Assembly: GCA_035945995.1 (NCBI GenBank)
Contig: DASYZR010000103.1
Location: 1-55,899 of the forward strand
Length of the DNA stretch: 55,899 bases
From: a bacterium
GTDB taxonomy: Bacteria; Sysuimicrobiota; Sysuimicrobiia; Sysuimicrobiales; Segetimicrobiaceae
Direction of reading: 5' to 3'
The notes beneath the pieces are model-generated. The model ran no database searches and was not told the origin of the DNA. It saw nothing but the letters and a program-made list of their open reading frames with translations. Within the stretch, counting starts at the first letter, position 1. Every line of letters begins with the position of its first letter. This document shows, piece after piece, positions 24,232 to 31,384 of this stretch. Made by a program: the position numbers and the translations under genes.

Positions 24232-25632
24232 TCATCGCGTCCCCGCGGTCCCGCCCGCGGGTGGGCGAGGGAGCGCCCGCCCGCCATCGACGTAGGGGCG
24301 GAACGGGCCCAGCCCGGCCGCCGGAATGTCCGCGTCGACGACGATGCCGGCATCCCCGTCCTCGCGGCGCACGACGCGGCCGATCCCGTAGAGGCGCGAG
24401 AGCACGCCGAGACGCTGGTACGGGATCACCAGGCGGACGCGCTCGACGGGATCCGGCAGGACCGCGGCGATCGTGCGGAGCAGGTGCGCCAGCCCCACGC
24501 CGCGGACCGCCGAAACGGGCACGCCGGCCGGTTCTTCCGCCGTCACGTCGCGCAGCGCCTCCGCCGACAGCCGGTCCGCCTTGTTGAGCACGGTGACGCG
24601 CGGGGTGCCGGCCGCGCCGAGATCCCCCAGCACCTGCTCCACGGCCGCGCGCTGGGCGGTCCAGCGGGTATGGCTCGCGTCGATGACATGAATCAGCAGA
24701 TCGGCCTCCGTCACTTCTTCCAGGGTGGCGCGGAACGCCGCGACGAGGTCGTGCGGCAGCTTCTGGATGAACCCGACGGTGTCGACGAGCAGCAGCGAGC
24801 GGTGGTTCGGCAGGACCACGCGCCGGGTCGTCGGGTCGAGGGTCGCGAAGAGTTTGTCCGCGGTCAGCACATGCGCGCGCGTGAGCGCGTTGAGCAGCGT
24901 GGACTTGCCGGCGTTTGTATAGCCGACCAGCACCGCCACCGGCAGCGCCGCGTCCTTGCGCGACTGGCGCTCCCGCTGCCGGTGCCGCCGCAGCGCGTTG
25001 ATCTCGCGCCCCAGCGCGGTGATCCGGGTGCGGATCCGCCGGCGGTCGACCTCGAGCTTCGTTTCGCCGGGCCCCCGAGTGCCGATGCCGCCGCCCAATC
25101 GCGAGAGGAGGGTGCCGCGGCCGGCCAGCCGCGGCAACAGATAGGTCATCTGCGCGAGCTCGACCTGGAGGCGCCCCTCGCGGGTCCGCGCGCGTTGGGC
25201 GAAGATGTCGAGCACGAGCGCGGTTCGATCGAGCACCTTGGTGTCGAGCGCCCGCTCGAGATTGCGCTGCTGGGCCGGGGTGAGTTCGTGGTCGAAGATG
25301 ACCACGTCCGCCCCCGCCGACCGCACGCGGGAGCGAATCTCTTCGACCTTGCCGGCGCCCACCGCGGTGGCCGGATCCGGCCGGGACCGGTGCTGCACCA
25401 CCATGCCCGTGACCCGGGCCCCCGCCGTGTCGGCGAGCCGGGCCAGTTCTTGGAGGGTCTCCTCCCCCTCGTCGGCCCGCGGCGCGAGCATGCCGACGAG
25501 CACCGCACGCTCAGGACCGCCCCGGCGGAGGTCGGCGGCGGGCCCGCGGCCGGCGTCCTCCGGCGCGCCGTCGGCGCCGGCGGCGAGGCCTCGGCGGAGT
25601 TTGTGGCCGAGCGGCGTCCCGGTGGTGCGCAT
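24232..25632 (-). CDS. hflX: GTPase HflX
   Basis: This 466-residue ribosome-associated GTPase is of the family that splits stalled or heat-damaged 70S ribosomes. The N-terminal HflX domain has VGAGKVEEIRSRV and VIFDHELTPAQQRNLERAL. The GGGIGTRGPGETKLE linker leads into a coiled helical pair. The G domain shows G1 GYTNAGKSTLLNAL, G3 DTVGFIQKLP and G4 NKADRL. A C-terminal basic tail ends the protein. It is the last gene of the HEPN-miaA-dapL-hflX operon, 9 bases after dapL. Confidence 0.95.
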   Translation of the reverse strand: MRTTGTPLGHKLRRGLAAGADGAPEDAGRGPAADLRRGGPERAVLVGMLAPRADEGEETLQELARLADTAGARVTGMVVQHRSRPDPATAVGAGKVEEIRSRVRSAGADVVIFDHELTPAQQRNLERALDTKVLDRTALVLDIFAQRARTREGRLQVELAQMTYLLPRLAGRGTLLSRLGGGIGTRGPGETKLEVDRRRIRTRITALGREINALRRHRQRERQSRKDAALPVAVLVGYTNAGKSTLLNALTRAHVLTADKLFATLDPTTRRVVLPNHRSLLLVDTVGFIQKLPHDLVAAFRATLEEVTEADLLIHVIDASHTRWTAQRAAVEQVLGDLGAAGTPRVTVLNKADRLSAEALRDVTAEEPAGVPVSAVRGVGLAHLLRTIAAVLPDPVERVRLVIPYQRLGVLSRLYGIGRVVRREDGDAGIVVDADIPAAGLGPFRPYVDGGRALPRPPAGGTAGTR

Positions 25633-25641
25633 TCCCGCCCG

Positions 25642-26817
25642 CTACCTCGGGGTCGCGGCGCGCAGATGGTCCCCGATGCGCCGGACCGCTTCGTCGAAGC
25701 GGGCGTCGGGCGCGGTCAGCGAGATCCGCACGTACCCGTCCCCGTGCGCGCCGTACCCGGTCCCCGGTGTCACGATGACCCCGGTGTGCTCGAGCAGGTC
25801 GCTCGCAAACGACACCGAGGTGTGCCCCGCCGGAACCGGGATCCACAGATAGAACGTCGCGCGCGGCACCGGAACGTCGAGCCCGGCCTCGCGCAGCCCC
25901 CGCACGACCCTGTCGCGCCGCCGCTGCCAGACGGCCACGCGCTCCCGGATCGGCGTCTCCGGACCGGTGAGGCCGGCGACCGCGGCCTCCTGGATCGCCA
26001 CCCACTGCCCGCTGTCGATGTTGGTCTTCAGCGTGCCCAGCGCCTGGACCGCGGTCTTGTTGCCGACGACGAAGCCCATGCGCCACCCCGTCATGCAAAA
26101 CGTCTTGCTGAGGGAATGGAACTCGACGGCGACGTCCTTGGCCCCGGGCGCCTCGAGCAGGCTCGGCGGCCGGTAGCCGTCGTAGGCGATCTCGGAATAG
26201 GTGTTGTCGTGCACGACGAGGATGTCCCAGTGCCGCGCCAGCTCCACGACGCGGGTGAAGAACGCGAGATCGGCCACGGCGCCGGTGGGATTGTTCGGGT
26301 AGTTCAGAAACAGCACGCGCGCGCGCCGGAGCACCTCGTCGGGAATCACGGAGAGGTCCGGTACCCACTCCTGCTCCCGGGTCATCGCGACCGGATAGAC
26401 CTCGCCCTCCGCCATGAGCGTGGCCACGGCGTACACCGGATATCCCGGGTCGCTCACGAGCGCGACGTCGCCGGGGTTGATGAACACCCACGGCACGTGC
26501 GCCAGCCCCTCTTTGGACCCGATGAGGGCCAGCACTTCGCTCCCCGGATCAAGGCGCACGCCGAACCGCCGGGCGTACCACCCGGCCACGGCGTCCCGGA
26601 ATTCCCGGGTTCCTTCGTACGGGGGATAGACGTGGGTGCGCGGGTCGCGGGCGGCGCGGGTCAGCGCCTCGACGATGTGGTCGGGCGTCGGCAGGTCCGG
26701 ATCGCCGATGGAAATGTTGATGACGTCGACGCCGCGGGCGCGCAGCGCGGCCCGCTTCTTGTCGATGTCGGCGAACAGGTACGGCGGAATCCGCTCCATC
26801 CGGCGCGCAACGCGCAT
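25642..26817 (-). CDS. dapL: LL-diaminopimelate aminotransferase-like class I/II aminotransferase
   Basis: This 391-residue fold-type I PLP enzyme should make LL-diaminopimelate from tetrahydrodipicolinate in lysine and peptidoglycan precursor synthesis. Markers are INISIGDPDLPTPDHIVEAL, YPPYEGTREFRDAVA, FLNYPNNPTGAVA, and the PLP Lys in HSLSKTFCMTGWRMGF, which is typical of DapL. The C-terminal Arg is in GYVRISLTAP. General aspartate-type aminotransferases look similar, so the substrate is probable, not certain. It sits between miaA and hflX, in the position where Enterobacteria have hfq. Confidence 0.85.
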   Translation of the reverse strand: MRVARRMERIPPYLFADIDKKRAALRARGVDVINISIGDPDLPTPDHIVEALTRAARDPRTHVYPPYEGTREFRDAVAGWYARRFGVRLDPGSEVLALIGSKEGLAHVPWVFINPGDVALVSDPGYPVYAVATLMAEGEVYPVAMTREQEWVPDLSVIPDEVLRRARVLFLNYPNNPTGAVADLAFFTRVVELARHWDILVVHDNTYSEIAYDGYRPPSLLEAPGAKDVAVEFHSLSKTFCMTGWRMGFVVGNKTAVQALGTLKTNIDSGQWVAIQEAAVAGLTGPETPIRERVAVWQRRRDRVVRGLREAGLDVPVPRATFYLWIPVPAGHTSVSFASDLLEHTGVIVTPGTGYGAHGDGYVRISLTAPDARFDEAVRRIGDHLRAATPR

Positions 26818-26850: not shown

Positions 26851-27807
26851 TCATAGCATGGGGTACCCGGCGGCATCGAGCGCCTCGAGCACGCGCGACG
26901 CCACTCCGTCGGCGGGCTCGTCGTCCACGTCGATCCAGCGGTAACGCGGGTCCGCGCGAAACCAGGTCCACTGCCGCTTGGCGTACCGGCGCGTGTTGCG
27001 GCGCAGTTGCGCCACCGCCGCGTCAAGCGTTGCCTCGCCCTCGAGGTACGCGGCGAGTTCCTTGTAGCCGAGGCCCTGCATTGCCGGCAGCGTCCGGTCG
27101 TAGCCCGCGCGGAGCAGCGTCCGGACTTCGTCGACCAGTCCCGCGGCGAGCTGGGACGCGATGCGCCGGTCGATCCGCTCATTGAGCCGGGCGTGGTCCA
27201 GAGTCAGCGCGATCATGCGGGCGGGACGGGCCCCCTCGCCCGCCGCCCACCGGCCCTCTCGCACCTGTTCCTGAAGCGACGACACCGGCATGCCCGTTAC
27301 CGTCCAGACCTCGAGTGCGCGGATGACCCGGCGCACGTTTCGCGGGTGAATCCGCATCGCCGCCACCGGATCCACCTGCCGCAGCCGGCCGTGCAGCGTG
27401 CCGGGACCGCCCGCACGCTCCTCCGCCGCGAGCCGCCGGCGAAGGTCCCAATCCGGAGCCGCGGCGGGGACGGCCACGCGGTCGACGACCGCGCGCAGGT
27501 ACAATCCGGTGCCTCCCGTCAGAACGACGGCGCGGCGGCGCCCCCGGATGCTCTCGATCGCGTCGCCCGCCAGGCGCTGATAGTCCGCAAGCGTGAACGG
27601 CTCGCCCGGATCGGCGACGTCCAGAAGATGGTGCGGCACGATGGCCCGCTCGCGCAGCGTCGGCTTGGCCGTGCCGATGTCGAGGCCGCGGTAGACGGTT
27701 CGGGAGTCGGCGCAGACGATCTCGGCGCCCAGCCGCCGGGCGAGCGCGATCGCGGTCCGCGTCTTCCCGGTCCCGGTCGGGCCGGCGAGGACGATGAGGT
27801 CGAACAC
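26851..27807 (-). CDS. miaA: tRNA dimethylallyltransferase MiaA
   Basis: This 318-residue enzyme adds a dimethylallyl group to A37 of tRNAs that read UNN codons. The P-loop GPTGTGKT is at residues 9-16, followed by ADSRTVYRGLDIGTAKPT. PHHLLDVADPGEPFTLADYQ, LTGGTGLYLRAVV and the zinc-free C-terminal tRNA-binding part (GLGYKELAAYLEG, RRYAKRQWTWFR) are all standard. Its product is the substrate for MiaB, encoded at 33153-34484. It begins 8 bases after the HEPN-like gene's stop. Confidence 0.97.
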   Translation of the reverse strand: MFDLIVLAGPTGTGKTRTAIALARRLGAEIVCADSRTVYRGLDIGTAKPTLRERAIVPHHLLDVADPGEPFTLADYQRLAGDAIESIRGRRRAVVLTGGTGLYLRAVVDRVAVPAAAPDWDLRRRLAAEERAGGPGTLHGRLRQVDPVAAMRIHPRNVRRVIRALEVWTVTGMPVSSLQEQVREGRWAAGEGARPARMIALTLDHARLNERIDRRIASQLAAGLVDEVRTLLRAGYDRTLPAMQGLGYKELAAYLEGEATLDAAVAQLRRNTRRYAKRQWTWFRADPRYRWIDVDDEPADGVASRVLEALDAAGYPML

Positions 27808-27815
27808 CCGGCGCG

Positions 27816-28778
27816 CTAGCGTGTTTGGGGACGCGCGCCTTTCCTCCGCCCGCCTCTGCGGCGCCGCCGGCGGGGCGCCGGCGGAGCGCTCGGTGTCGGA
27901 GCGGGCGTGAGCGGCGCCGCGTTACCGGAGGTCGCCCCATCGCGCTCGCCTGCGGCCGTCGCGCGGGACGGCGGAGCGGCCGGCGGCAAGACCGGCCGGC
28001 CGGCCCCGGCGACCCGGACGGGAACACGGTCGTCGAGCCACACGAACTGGCGCGGCGGGGATCGCCGGTCCATCTCGTAAAAGGCACGATAGAGCATGGT
28101 GGCGGTGTCGACGGCGTGTTTCGCGTTGGCCGCGGACAGGAGCGCATCGACCTGCGTCTCACCGCCCGCCTGCGTGTCCTTGTACCGGCCTTTGTAATGC
28201 GTCAGCATGTTGCGCCAGGACCGCAACGTCGACAGCGCCGAGAGCTCCTTGCCGTCATCGGTGAACGTGCGTCCCGTCTTGCTCACAAGACGGGTGACCT
28301 CGAGCCACTTGCCTTCCGGCGACATGCGGTCGTAGTGGCGGAACCGGCCGCCGAGGCGGTCCTGTCCGACCATGTTGATAAACGCCTCGACCGCGAAGTA
28401 TGCCATGAGCACGCTGACGAGACTGTGCGTCCGTTCCCCGTCGCGGTCCGGCGGCGTCGCCGCCGCGCACCGAGCCGCCGCTTCGGCGTGCTCGCGGGCG
28501 AGACGAAACATCACCTGCTCGAGGTGCGTGCGTTCCCAGGCCTTCTCCTCGGCTGCAAGCGCGGCCGCGCTGGGACCGGACGGAGCCGGCGCGCCGGCGC
28601 GGCGCGATGGTGAGGGCGCCGCGTGACGCGCCGCGGGTGCGGTGGCATCGTCCACTGCTGCGTCCCCGGCCGTCATCGCTGGTACCGCCGCACCCGGCTG
28701 GGAACGCGCCCGCCCGCCTCGTCCTCTGCGCCGCCGCCGGCGCTGCGCCGGTGCCGCGCGGTGTTGAATGTCGTCCAT
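27816..28778 (-). CDS. HEPN-like (R-x4-H) protein with arginine-rich tails at both ends
   Basis: This 320-residue protein was not recognised as a named family. A helical core (about residues 75-245) is flanked by Ala/Pro linkers and by strongly basic ends: six arginines in a row at 13-18, and six more at 303-308 followed by GGRRKG. In the core, VSVLMAYFAVEAFINMVG (121-138) is followed by STLRSWRNMLTHYKG (183-197). RNMLTH (189-194) is an R-x4-H motif, the catalytic hallmark of HEPN-fold RNases. I infer an RNA-binding, possibly RNA-cleaving protein. It heads the operon with miaA, dapL and hflX and diverges from mutS. The ATG at 28778 is chosen because an upstream extension would run into mutS. 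Confidence 0.72.
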   Translation of the reverse strand: MDDIQHRAAPAQRRRRRRGRGGRARSQPGAAVPAMTAGDAAVDDATAPAARHAAPSPSRRAGAPAPSGPSAAALAAEEKAWERTHLEQVMFRLAREHAEAAARCAAATPPDRDGERTHSLVSVLMAYFAVEAFINMVGQDRLGGRFRHYDRMSPEGKWLEVTRLVSKTGRTFTDDGKELSALSTLRSWRNMLTHYKGRYKDTQAGGETQVDALLSAANAKHAVDTATMLYRAFYEMDRRSPPRQFVWLDDRVPVRVAGAGRPVLPPAAPPSRATAAGERDGATSGNAAPLTPAPTPSAPPAPRRRRRRGGRRKGARPQTR

Positions 28779-28786
28779 CGCCCCGT

Positions 28787-28808
28787 CTGTTCGCCACACG
28801 CCGAACAG
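28787..28808. promoter_or_regulatory. Inverted repeat in the HEPN-operon / mutS divergent region
   Basis: CTGTTCG (28787-28793) and CGAACAG (28802-28808) form a perfect 7-bp inverted repeat with an 8-base spacer, nearly centred in the 62-base gap between the two divergent starts. A protein bound here could control both operons. The half-sites are in the opposite order to a LexA box. Confidence 0.45.
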
Positions 28809-28840
28809 GACCCCTTCCCGGTGCGACGAAGTCAGACGCA

Positions 28841-31384
28841 ATGAGTGAACCGACGCCCATGATGCGCCAGTACCAGGCGCTCAAGGACGAGCACCCGCAC
28901 GCCCTGCTGCTGTTCCGGTTGGGCGACTTCTACGAGGCCTTTTTCGGCGACGCGCAGGTGGTGGCCCGTGAACTCCAACTGACGCTGACGAGCCGGCCGG
29001 TCGCCAAGGGACGCCGGATCCCGATGTGCGGCATCCCCCATCACGCGCTGCACACCTACCTGCGCCGGCTCATCGATCGGGGCCACCGGGTCGCCATCTG
29101 TGACCAGGTCGAGGATCCGCGACAGGCCCGGGCCCTCGTGCGCCGCGAAGTCGTGCGCGTCGTCACGCCGGGGACCGTGATCGAAGACGACCTCCTCACG
29201 GCGCGTGAAAACAACTTCATCGCGGCGACCGTGATCGACGCCGACGACTGGGGGATCGCGCTCGCGGACGTGTCGACCGGCGAGTTCGTCGCGGCGCAGG
29301 GTGCGGGATCCGAGCGGCGCGACGAAGTCCTGGCACGGTGGCGGCCCCGCGAGCTGATCGTGCCCGACGAGCCCGACGGCCGGGGGCACGGTGCGTTCGC
29401 CGGTCCCGACGGCCTCGGCGCCGTCGTGACGCCGTTCGACGCGTGGCGGTTCGATCCCGGCGTCGCCGCCCGCGAACTCCGCGCGCACCTCGGCGTCGCC
29501 GCCCTCGACGCGTTCGGCCTCGACGCGTCACCGGCGGCCGCGGCGGCGGCCGGTGCGCTCGTGCAATACCTGCGGGCCACGCACCGCGGGTCCCTCGCCC
29601 ACCTCCGTGGGCTTAGATTGCTGCCGCCTCACGACGGCCTGGTGTTGGATGATGCGACCCGACGCGCCCTCGGCCTGTGGGCCTCCGCGCGCGACGAGCG
29701 GCGCGGCCCCACCCTGCTCGATGTGGTCGACCTCACCGAGACGGCGATGGGAGGCCGCCTCCTCCGCCGGTGGCTGGGCCAGCCGCTCGACAGCGTCGAG
29801 GAGATCACGGCCCGCCAGGACGCGGTGCAGGCCCTCGTCGACGCCGGCCAGACCCGTGAGCGCGTCCGGACCCACCTGCGCGCGCTCGGCGACCTCGAGC
29901 GTCTGATCGGCCGGCTGAGCCATGACGCGGGCGGGCCGCGCGACCTCGCGGGCCTGCGCGACACGCTGGAGGCGATCCCCGGCGTCGTACCTGCGGCCGC
30001 ATCGCTCGCGGCCCCGGCGCTGCGGCGGCTCGTCCCCCTGCTGGCGCCGCCGCCCGACCTCGCCGACCGGCTGCGGCGGGCGCTCGCCGACCCGCCGCCG
30101 CTCTCACCGCGCGCGGGCGGCGTCATCCGGCCCGGGTTCGACGGGGACGTCGACGCGCTCCGCGAGGGATCCAGGGAGGCGAAGGACTGGATGGCCGGAC
30201 GCGAGGCCGCGGAGCGACAGCGCACCGGCATCCGCGGCCTGAAGATCGGCTACAACCAGGTGATGGGCTACTACATCGAGGTCGGCAAGTCGCAGACCCA
30301 TCTCGTCCCCGCGGACTATGTCCGCAAGGGCACCCTGGCCGGCGCCGAACGCTACATCACGGCGGAGATGAAGGAACGGGAGGCGTTGATCCTCAGCGCC
30401 GAGGACCGGATCAACGCCCGGGAGTACGCGGTGTTCTGCGACCTCCGCGCCGCGGTGCGCGCCGAGAGCGATCGGCTCCAAGCCTGCGCCCGCGCCCTGG
30501 CCGAACTCGACGTCTATGCCGCGCTCGCCGAGGTCGCCGTCCGCTCCGGCTACGTCCGTCCGCATGTGAGCGGCGATCGCGCGATCCGCATCGTCGCCGG
30601 CCGGCACCCCGCGGTCGAACAGGCGCTGGGGCCTGAGCGCTTCGTCCCCAACGACCTCGCGCTCGGCACGGACGGCCGCGACCTCCTCATCGTGACCGGC
30701 CCGAATTTCGGCGGCAAGAGCACGTACATCCGCCAGGCCGCCCTGCTCATCGTCCTCGCCCAGCTCGGGAGCTTCGTCCCGGCCGGCCAGGCCGACATCG
30801 GACTCGTCGACCGCATCTTCACGCGGGTCGGCGCTACGGACGATCTCGCGGCCGGCCGCAGCACGTTCCTGTCCGAGATGATCGAGGTGGCGCGTCTCTT
30901 GACCCAGGCCACCCCGCGCAGCCTCGTGATTCTTGATGAAGTCGGCCGCGGGACGAGCACGTACGACGGCATGAGTCTCGCCTGGGCCGTGGTCGAAGAT
31001 CTGCACGACCGCGTGCGGGCCCGCACGCTGTTCGCCACACACTACCACGAACTGACCGAGCTCGCGTCGCAGCTCGACCGCGTGGCCAACCTCCAGGTTC
31101 TCGTGCGCGAGGAAGGCCGTGACGTCGTGTTCTTACATCAGGTGGCCGACGGCGCCGCCGCGTCATCCTACGGCATCCACGTCGCCGGGCTGGCCGGCGT
31201 CCCGGACGCCGTGATCCGGCGCGCGCGGGAAGTCCTGGGCGGGCTCGAGCGGGCCGCCCACGCGCCGCGGGGCCGCCGGCCGAGACGCGGGCCGTCGCGC
31301 GGCCAGCAGCTCGCGCTTCCGCTCCCCCGCGACGCCGGCGCATTCCGCCGGCTAGTCCCGCGTGAGCGGGACGGCCGCCGGTGA
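28841..31384 (+). CDS. mutS: DNA mismatch repair protein MutS
   Basis: This 847-residue mismatch sensor is of the MutS1 type. The mismatch-wedging motif FYE is present in LLFRLGDFYEAFFGDA (near residue 21). The ATPase domain has Walker A GPNFGGKSTYIRQ, in which Phe replaces the usual Met. It also has DEVGRGTSTYDGMSLAWA and ATHYHELTELA. The clamp region contains GYYIEVGKSQTHLVPADYVRK. The ATG at 28841 lacks a strong Shine-Dalgarno. The stop shares GTGA with the mutL start. Confidence 0.97.
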   Translation: MSEPTPMMRQYQALKDEHPHALLLFRLGDFYEAFFGDAQVVARELQLTLTSRPVAKGRRIPMCGIPHHALHTYLRRLIDRGHRVAICDQVEDPRQARALVRREVVRVVTPGTVIEDDLLTARENNFIAATVIDADDWGIALADVSTGEFVAAQGAGSERRDEVLARWRPRELIVPDEPDGRGHGAFAGPDGLGAVVTPFDAWRFDPGVAARELRAHLGVAALDAFGLDASPAAAAAAGALVQYLRATHRGSLAHLRGLRLLPPHDGLVLDDATRRALGLWASARDERRGPTLLDVVDLTETAMGGRLLRRWLGQPLDSVEEITARQDAVQALVDAGQTRERVRTHLRALGDLERLIGRLSHDAGGPRDLAGLRDTLEAIPGVVPAAASLAAPALRRLVPLLAPPPDLADRLRRALADPPPLSPRAGGVIRPGFDGDVDALREGSREAKDWMAGREAAERQRTGIRGLKIGYNQVMGYYIEVGKSQTHLVPADYVRKGTLAGAERYITAEMKEREALILSAEDRINAREYAVFCDLRAAVRAESDRLQACARALAELDVYAALAEVAVRSGYVRPHVSGDRAIRIVAGRHPAVEQALGPERFVPNDLALGTDGRDLLIVTGPNFGGKSTYIRQAALLIVLAQLGSFVPAGQADIGLVDRIFTRVGATDDLAAGRSTFLSEMIEVARLLTQATPRSLVILDEVGRGTSTYDGMSLAWAVVEDLHDRVRARTLFATHYHELTELASQLDRVANLQVLVREEGRDVVFLHQVADGAAASSYGIHVAGLAGVPDAVIRRAREVLGGLERAAHAPRGRRPRRGPSRGQQLALPLPRDAGAFRRLVPRERDGRR

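Follow-up and report, generated by a model that had tools for sequence, protein, structure and literature searches.

Gene X of the Segetimicrobiaceae, uncultured soil bacteria of the Sysuimicrobiota, represents a real, new HEPN-type family that combines an unusual architecture with a fixed place in the core genome, and whose function we infer. The gene lies in a window of 55,899 nucleotides (the whole stretch of DNA analysed) from a 4.1 Mb genome that is 98.8% complete. A sequence-only reading had proposed that it encodes a HEPN-type RNA-binding protein at the head of a tRNA-modification and ribosome-rescue operon.

Gene X between mutS and miaA

The 320 aa of the X protein are encoded by positions 27819-28778 of the (-) strand, with the stop codon at 27816-27818. 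Its translation reads as an Arg-rich tail, a Pro/Ala-rich linker, a HEPN-like core, a further linker and a second Arg-rich tail. The features of the locus are as follows.

27816..28778, (-) strand: gene X, 320-aa protein, stop codon included; supported by translation and by homologues in 12/12 Segetimicrobiaceae genomes
28026..28547, (-) strand: conserved HEPN-like core, residues 78-251; 67-94% identity to X in the alignment, all helical in the AF2 model
28197..28214, (-) strand: R-x4-H motif RNMLTH, residues 189-194, at the end of helix 3; invariant in 11 orthologues
28386..28388, (-) strand: codon of Glu131 in helix 2 (EAFIN), a candidate second active-site acid; invariant in 17 divergent members
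28725..28742, (-) strand: N-terminal Arg run RRRRRR, residues 13-18; mixed codons, cluster recurs in homologues
27855..27872, (-) strand: C-terminal Arg run RRRRRR, residues 303-308; cluster recurs in complete homologues
26851..27807, (-) strand: miaA (tRNA dimethylallyltransferase), downstream of X
25642..26817, (-) strand: PLP aminotransferase gene, from the ORF list; conserved order
24232..25632, (-) strand: hflX GTPase gene, last of the (-) strand unit, from the ORF list; conserved order
28841..31384, (+) strand: mutS, with ATG as its start codon, divergent from X
28779..28840, no strand: X-mutS intergenic region, 62 bases between the two starts, with a conserved GGGTCC element

The gene order is thus X-miaA-aminotransferase-hflX on the (-) strand and mutS-mutL on the (+) strand. 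These coordinates agree with the earlier description of X as lying 8 bases upstream of miaA (which starts with GTG at 27807), in an operon ending in hflX and divergent from mutS. Translation likewise confirmed the RNMLTH motif and the runs of six arginines near both ends. Most Segetimicrobiaceae genomes share the GGGTCC element of the intergenic region. The window also has a LexA-type palindrome (CTGTTCG-8-CGAACAG) in the X-mutS interval, which was set aside because it is not repeated in the relatives. Elsewhere in the same genome are two ordinary HepT-like genes, distinct from X (G000:C71:17629-17916, L147; G000:C23:874-1155).

A core profile search found X in single copy in all 12 Segetimicrobiaceae genomes, and no orthologue at E <= 0.001 among the remaining 31 from the phylum, which comprises one class and one order (PMC11604079). 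The named records with close homologues are 'Terrabacteria group bacterium ANGP1' (Candidatus Segetimicrobium genomatis, Segetimicrobiaceae) and two MAGs labelled 'Bacillota'. The genomic setting is conserved: X adjoins divergent mutS in 10/10 regions taken and is followed by miaA at each of the nine homologous loci whose contig reaches that gene, so that the place beside miaA is kept. Farther along, where the contig continues, come the aminotransferase gene, hflX and lexA. The gap between the X stop codon and the miaA start is 2-13 bases in L004, L005, L007, L008 and L010, and up to about 60 in the others.

In six sister-family genomes (five of f4 and one of f3), mutS and miaA are immediate neighbours that diverge from each other. 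Since the 31 non-family genomes yielded no orthologue of X and these six have miaA abutting mutS, the simplest reading is that X was probably gained between the two genes in the ancestor of the Segetimicrobiaceae. A broader profile detected distant relatives in G013 and G029, both of which belong to the same order; in the first, the relative lies away from that genome's mutS-miaA. As to the suggestion that X is a house-keeping gene, X is core to the Segetimicrobiaceae (12/12 genomes), but because it is restricted to this family it is not an ancient housekeeping gene.

Conservation of the core motif and the arginine tails

Since R-x4-H arises readily by chance in an Arg-rich protein, the case for X was built on conservation and homology. 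Of whole-protein shuffles of X, 72% contained one or more R-x4-H and 10% contained R[NDH]-x3-H; the motif alone is not significant, and it is conservation that carries the case. Eleven homologues with core identities of 67-94% keep R189, N190 and H194 unchanged, and E131 and K157 are likewise invariant among the orthologues. Across 17 aligned sequences, among them relatives that are 15-26% identical to X, no column other than E131, K157, R189 and H194 is invariant, a pattern partly selected for in members found with profiles containing these motifs, which does not apply to the tblastn matches. The conservation of Arg and His on which the earlier assignment depended is therefore borne out, both residues being invariant in all orthologues and in the distant relatives.

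HEPN domains, as defined by Anantharaman et al. 2013 (PMC3710099), have a four-helix up-down fold in which helix 3 ends in R-x4-6-H; the motif Arg is followed by a polar residue, helix 2 carries an acidic one, and the segment joining helices 2 and 3 often contains an insert. In the X family, the residue after the motif Arg is N in every orthologue and N or D in the relatives. The helix-2 acid is E131, invariant in all members and located in helix 35-73 of the core model; in the orthologues it occurs as E-x3-N/S rather than in the Ex3[KR] form, which is typical of HEPN domains but not universal.

Outside the core, the linkers and tails cannot be aligned, yet Arg-rich clusters recur at both termini of complete homologues, and the Arg runs of X are written with mixed codons (CGC/CGG/CGT/CGA/AGA/AGG), which together argue that the clusters are kept at the protein level. 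Exceptions are L006, which is cut by a contig end, and L010, in which the N-terminal cluster is weaker. The tails are present in the orthologues and not in the plasmid relatives. In genome G003 the copy of X (L008:1396-2073 and upstream) is interrupted by an in-frame TAG within the linker that joins the Arg-rich N-terminus to the core, owing to misassembly or to decay of the tail. X is a real gene under selection.

Probable HEPN membership and the orphan relatives

Against Pfam, NCBIfam and PADLOC, X exceeds no model's curated cut-off, a PHROG search returned nothing convincing, and a sequence search against solved structures gave chance matches only. Distant relatives were found by other routes. 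The X profile matched a 200-aa orphan in another phylum (E 0.005), tblastn with X recovered Pseudomonas plasmid proteins (E 2e-5), and tblastn with the 200-aa orphan recovered plasmid proteins of Bradyrhizobium (E 2e-9) and Sphingomonas (E 8e-8). A rebuilt profile then matched four more (L168 to L171) with E-values of 6e-18 to 3e-5. All of these relatives are solo 'hypothetical proteins' or unannotated frames. Two weak matches were rejected as chance, namely L045 (E 0.0066), which is a radical-SAM protein frame, and L017 in G004, which is not an R-x4-H protein.

Several observations concern the surroundings of these genes. An SOS response-associated peptidase gene (SRAP/YedK type) lies within a few kb of the plasmid relatives L048, L052, L053, L054 and L055, and a tyrosine recombinase is immediately downstream in L049, L054 and L055. 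The Bradyrhizobium relative has a CBASS cGAMP-activated phospholipase gene (L052:985-2028) some 2 kb away, and a macro-domain-like open frame (L168:2285-2827) precedes an orphan HEPN gene on the same strand.

In hhalign comparisons the X profile matched the orphan relatives at 97.6% (E 3.9e-12). The orphans in turn matched RiboL-PSP HEPN at 54% (E 1.3e-4) and HepT at 22% (E 9.8e-4), and in both cases the motifs align in register. Reversing these pairs as controls gave 0.7% or less, and one self-reversed control scored 12% in an earlier run. X alone gave less than 1% against each of HepT (0.5%) and RiboL-PSP, so the link to HEPN runs via the orphans. When the four newly found relatives were submitted to hmmscan, three of them had a HEPN family as best Pfam match, namely MAE_28990 and Cthe2314 (E 0.0022 each) and RiboL-PSP HEPN (E 0.043), all below cut-off. 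This chain of profiles to known HEPN families adds to the motif and supports the HEPN-type assignment.

The AF2 model of the core (pLDDT 81, pTM 0.81) is all helical. The third long helix, 100-116, terminates in the motif (R112-H117 in core numbering) and is preceded by an insert helix, 77-88; the model thus has the motif position and the helix 2-3 insert described for HEPN domains. The best PDB matches in Foldseek were HepT chains (7bxo, 6m6w, 6m6u and 7ae6) with probabilities up to 0.97, E-values of 0.18 or worse and TM scores of 0.44-0.59, and are suggestive of a HEPN fold; the model did not refute the fold proposed from the sequence. A low-confidence model of the relative P0002 (pLDDT 65) gave no HEPN match, and Foldseek returned low-probability 14-3-3 and other helical proteins for it. 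Among viral folds, the best match of the X core was an uncharacterised siphovirus protein (BFVD A0A8S5NC87; probability 0.99, E 0.08). Taken together, the conservation, the profile chain, the model and the Pfam matches of the relatives make it very likely that X belongs to HEPN.

Proposed function and comparison with known HEPN systems

HEPN RNases generally act as dimers, and Arg-rich tails can bind RNA or ribosomes. On balance we favour the reading that X is a solo, metal-independent HEPN endoribonuclease, captured from a mobile pool, whose Arg tails reach RNA or ribosomes; its catalysis, targets and control are our inference. The helical core would dimerise, pairing two R-x4-H motifs (R189/N190/H194), and E131 of helix 2 may contribute to a composite metal-independent RNase site that would leave 2',3'-cyclic phosphate ends. 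Characterised HEPN RNases require the His and Arg for metal-independent cleavage, which yields cyclic phosphate ends (PMC3710099). Tethering to RNA or ribosomes would fall to the Arg-rich tails, which sit on flexible Pro/Ala linkers. As to its origin, X probably came to the Segetimicrobiaceae ancestor out of a pool of mobile solo HEPN genes, became the first gene of the miaA-aminotransferase-hflX unit and was then fixed as a cellular factor in RNA processing or translation stress. That X leads a unit containing miaA and hflX weakly suggests a link to tRNA or translation stress. The 'RNA-processing or translation-linked' role given to X earlier would follow from its location and Arg tails only, and hflX is the one gene that would point to a 'ribosome-rescue' label for the operon. 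X might even found a new housekeeping class of HEPN endoribonuclease, namely a captured mobile RNase that is Arg-tethered, antitoxin-free and essential in RNA maturation or translation stress in an uncultured phylum, although we hold this broader proposal only tentatively.

An unlikely, but the best-surviving, alternative is a non-catalytic role in the cell: X would be an RNA-binding or scaffold protein of HEPN fold, in which tails and core bind RNA and R189 and H194 are kept for binding. Its most conspicuous gain over the relatives is the pair of Arg-rich tails, the lack of a toxin-control partner beside X would suit a harmless binder, and nucleic-acid-binding HEPN versions have been noted (PMC3710099). 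Such versions are, however, described as lacking conserved charged or polar residues (PMC3710099), whereas X keeps E131, R189, N190 and H194.

It is less probable still that X is a domesticated defence or abortive-infection RNase, silent until phage or other stress and governed by an unlinked or intrinsic switch. This would fit the plasmid relatives beside integrases, one of them near the CBASS phospholipase gene, and the many HEPN families that are defence RNases (PMC3710099). X, however, is single-copy and fixed beside mutS and miaA in 12/12 family genomes, belongs to no convincing PADLOC family and has no match in the phage collection. A phage origin was rejected because neither a phage-collection match nor a confirmed viral contig was found.

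A core that is a non-HEPN helical bundle, with a fortuitous R-x4-H in an Arg-rich DNA/RNA-binding factor, is very improbable: such motifs are common by chance in so Arg-rich a protein and the Foldseek E-values are not significant, but the E, K, R and H residues are invariant in divergent relatives, whose profiles match two HEPN families in register and whose best Pfam matches are HEPN.

X was also considered as a replacement for Hfq and discarded, canonical Hfq being nearly absent across the phylum with or without X. Most Hfq matches in Sysuimicrobiota (e.g. L065-L092) are Hfq-like segments embedded in long open frames, most of these being about 280-500 aa.

Known bacterial HEPN proteins are mainly toxins, defence effectors and CRISPR nucleases. 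The HepT toxin (PF01934) of the HEPN/MNT type VII toxin-antitoxin system resembles X in having R-x4-H at the end of helix 3. By contrast with HepT pairs, the MNT gene is absent beside X, whose conserved neighbours are mutS, miaA, the aminotransferase gene and hflX, in line with the earlier observation that no antitoxin gene adjoins it. MntA adenylylates the tyrosine of the HepT RX4HXY motif (PMC7641770); the corresponding residue in X is Lys196 (H194-Y195-K196), a Lys invariant in 11 orthologues. Judged by its sequence and neighbours, X cannot be under HepT/MntA-type control, because an adjacent MNT gene is lacking and the tyrosine is replaced by Lys.

In RiboL-PSP HEPN (PF18735), the helix-2 Glu and R-x4-H are in register with the orphan relatives of X. 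Unlike these shared positions, the sequence between the motifs differs from that of X, hmmscan finds no match to this family for X, and the members fetched are without Arg tails. Cthe_2314-like (PF18730) and MAE_28990-like (PF18737) are the best Pfam matches of L169 and L168, respectively, below the curated cut-offs, and X itself matches neither.

The closest kin of X are the orphan HEPN-like proteins of Pseudomonas, Sphingomonas and Bradyrhizobium plasmids (about 206-239 aa; L044, L168-L171), with which it shares the EA[FY][ILV]N-like helix 2, a GK[W]-type segment and R[ND]x3HxK. These unannotated solo orphans, found on plasmids and in several phyla, are thereby tied to the HEPN superfamily, and current family libraries miss them. 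The orphans are without terminal Arg runs and several sit on plasmids beside integrases, whereas X is chromosomal, fixed in place and Arg-tailed. If the proposed reading of X as a captured endoribonuclease is true, a mobile RNase fold has become a fixed cellular component that is family-wide, single-copy, syntenic, antitoxin-free and Arg-tailed.
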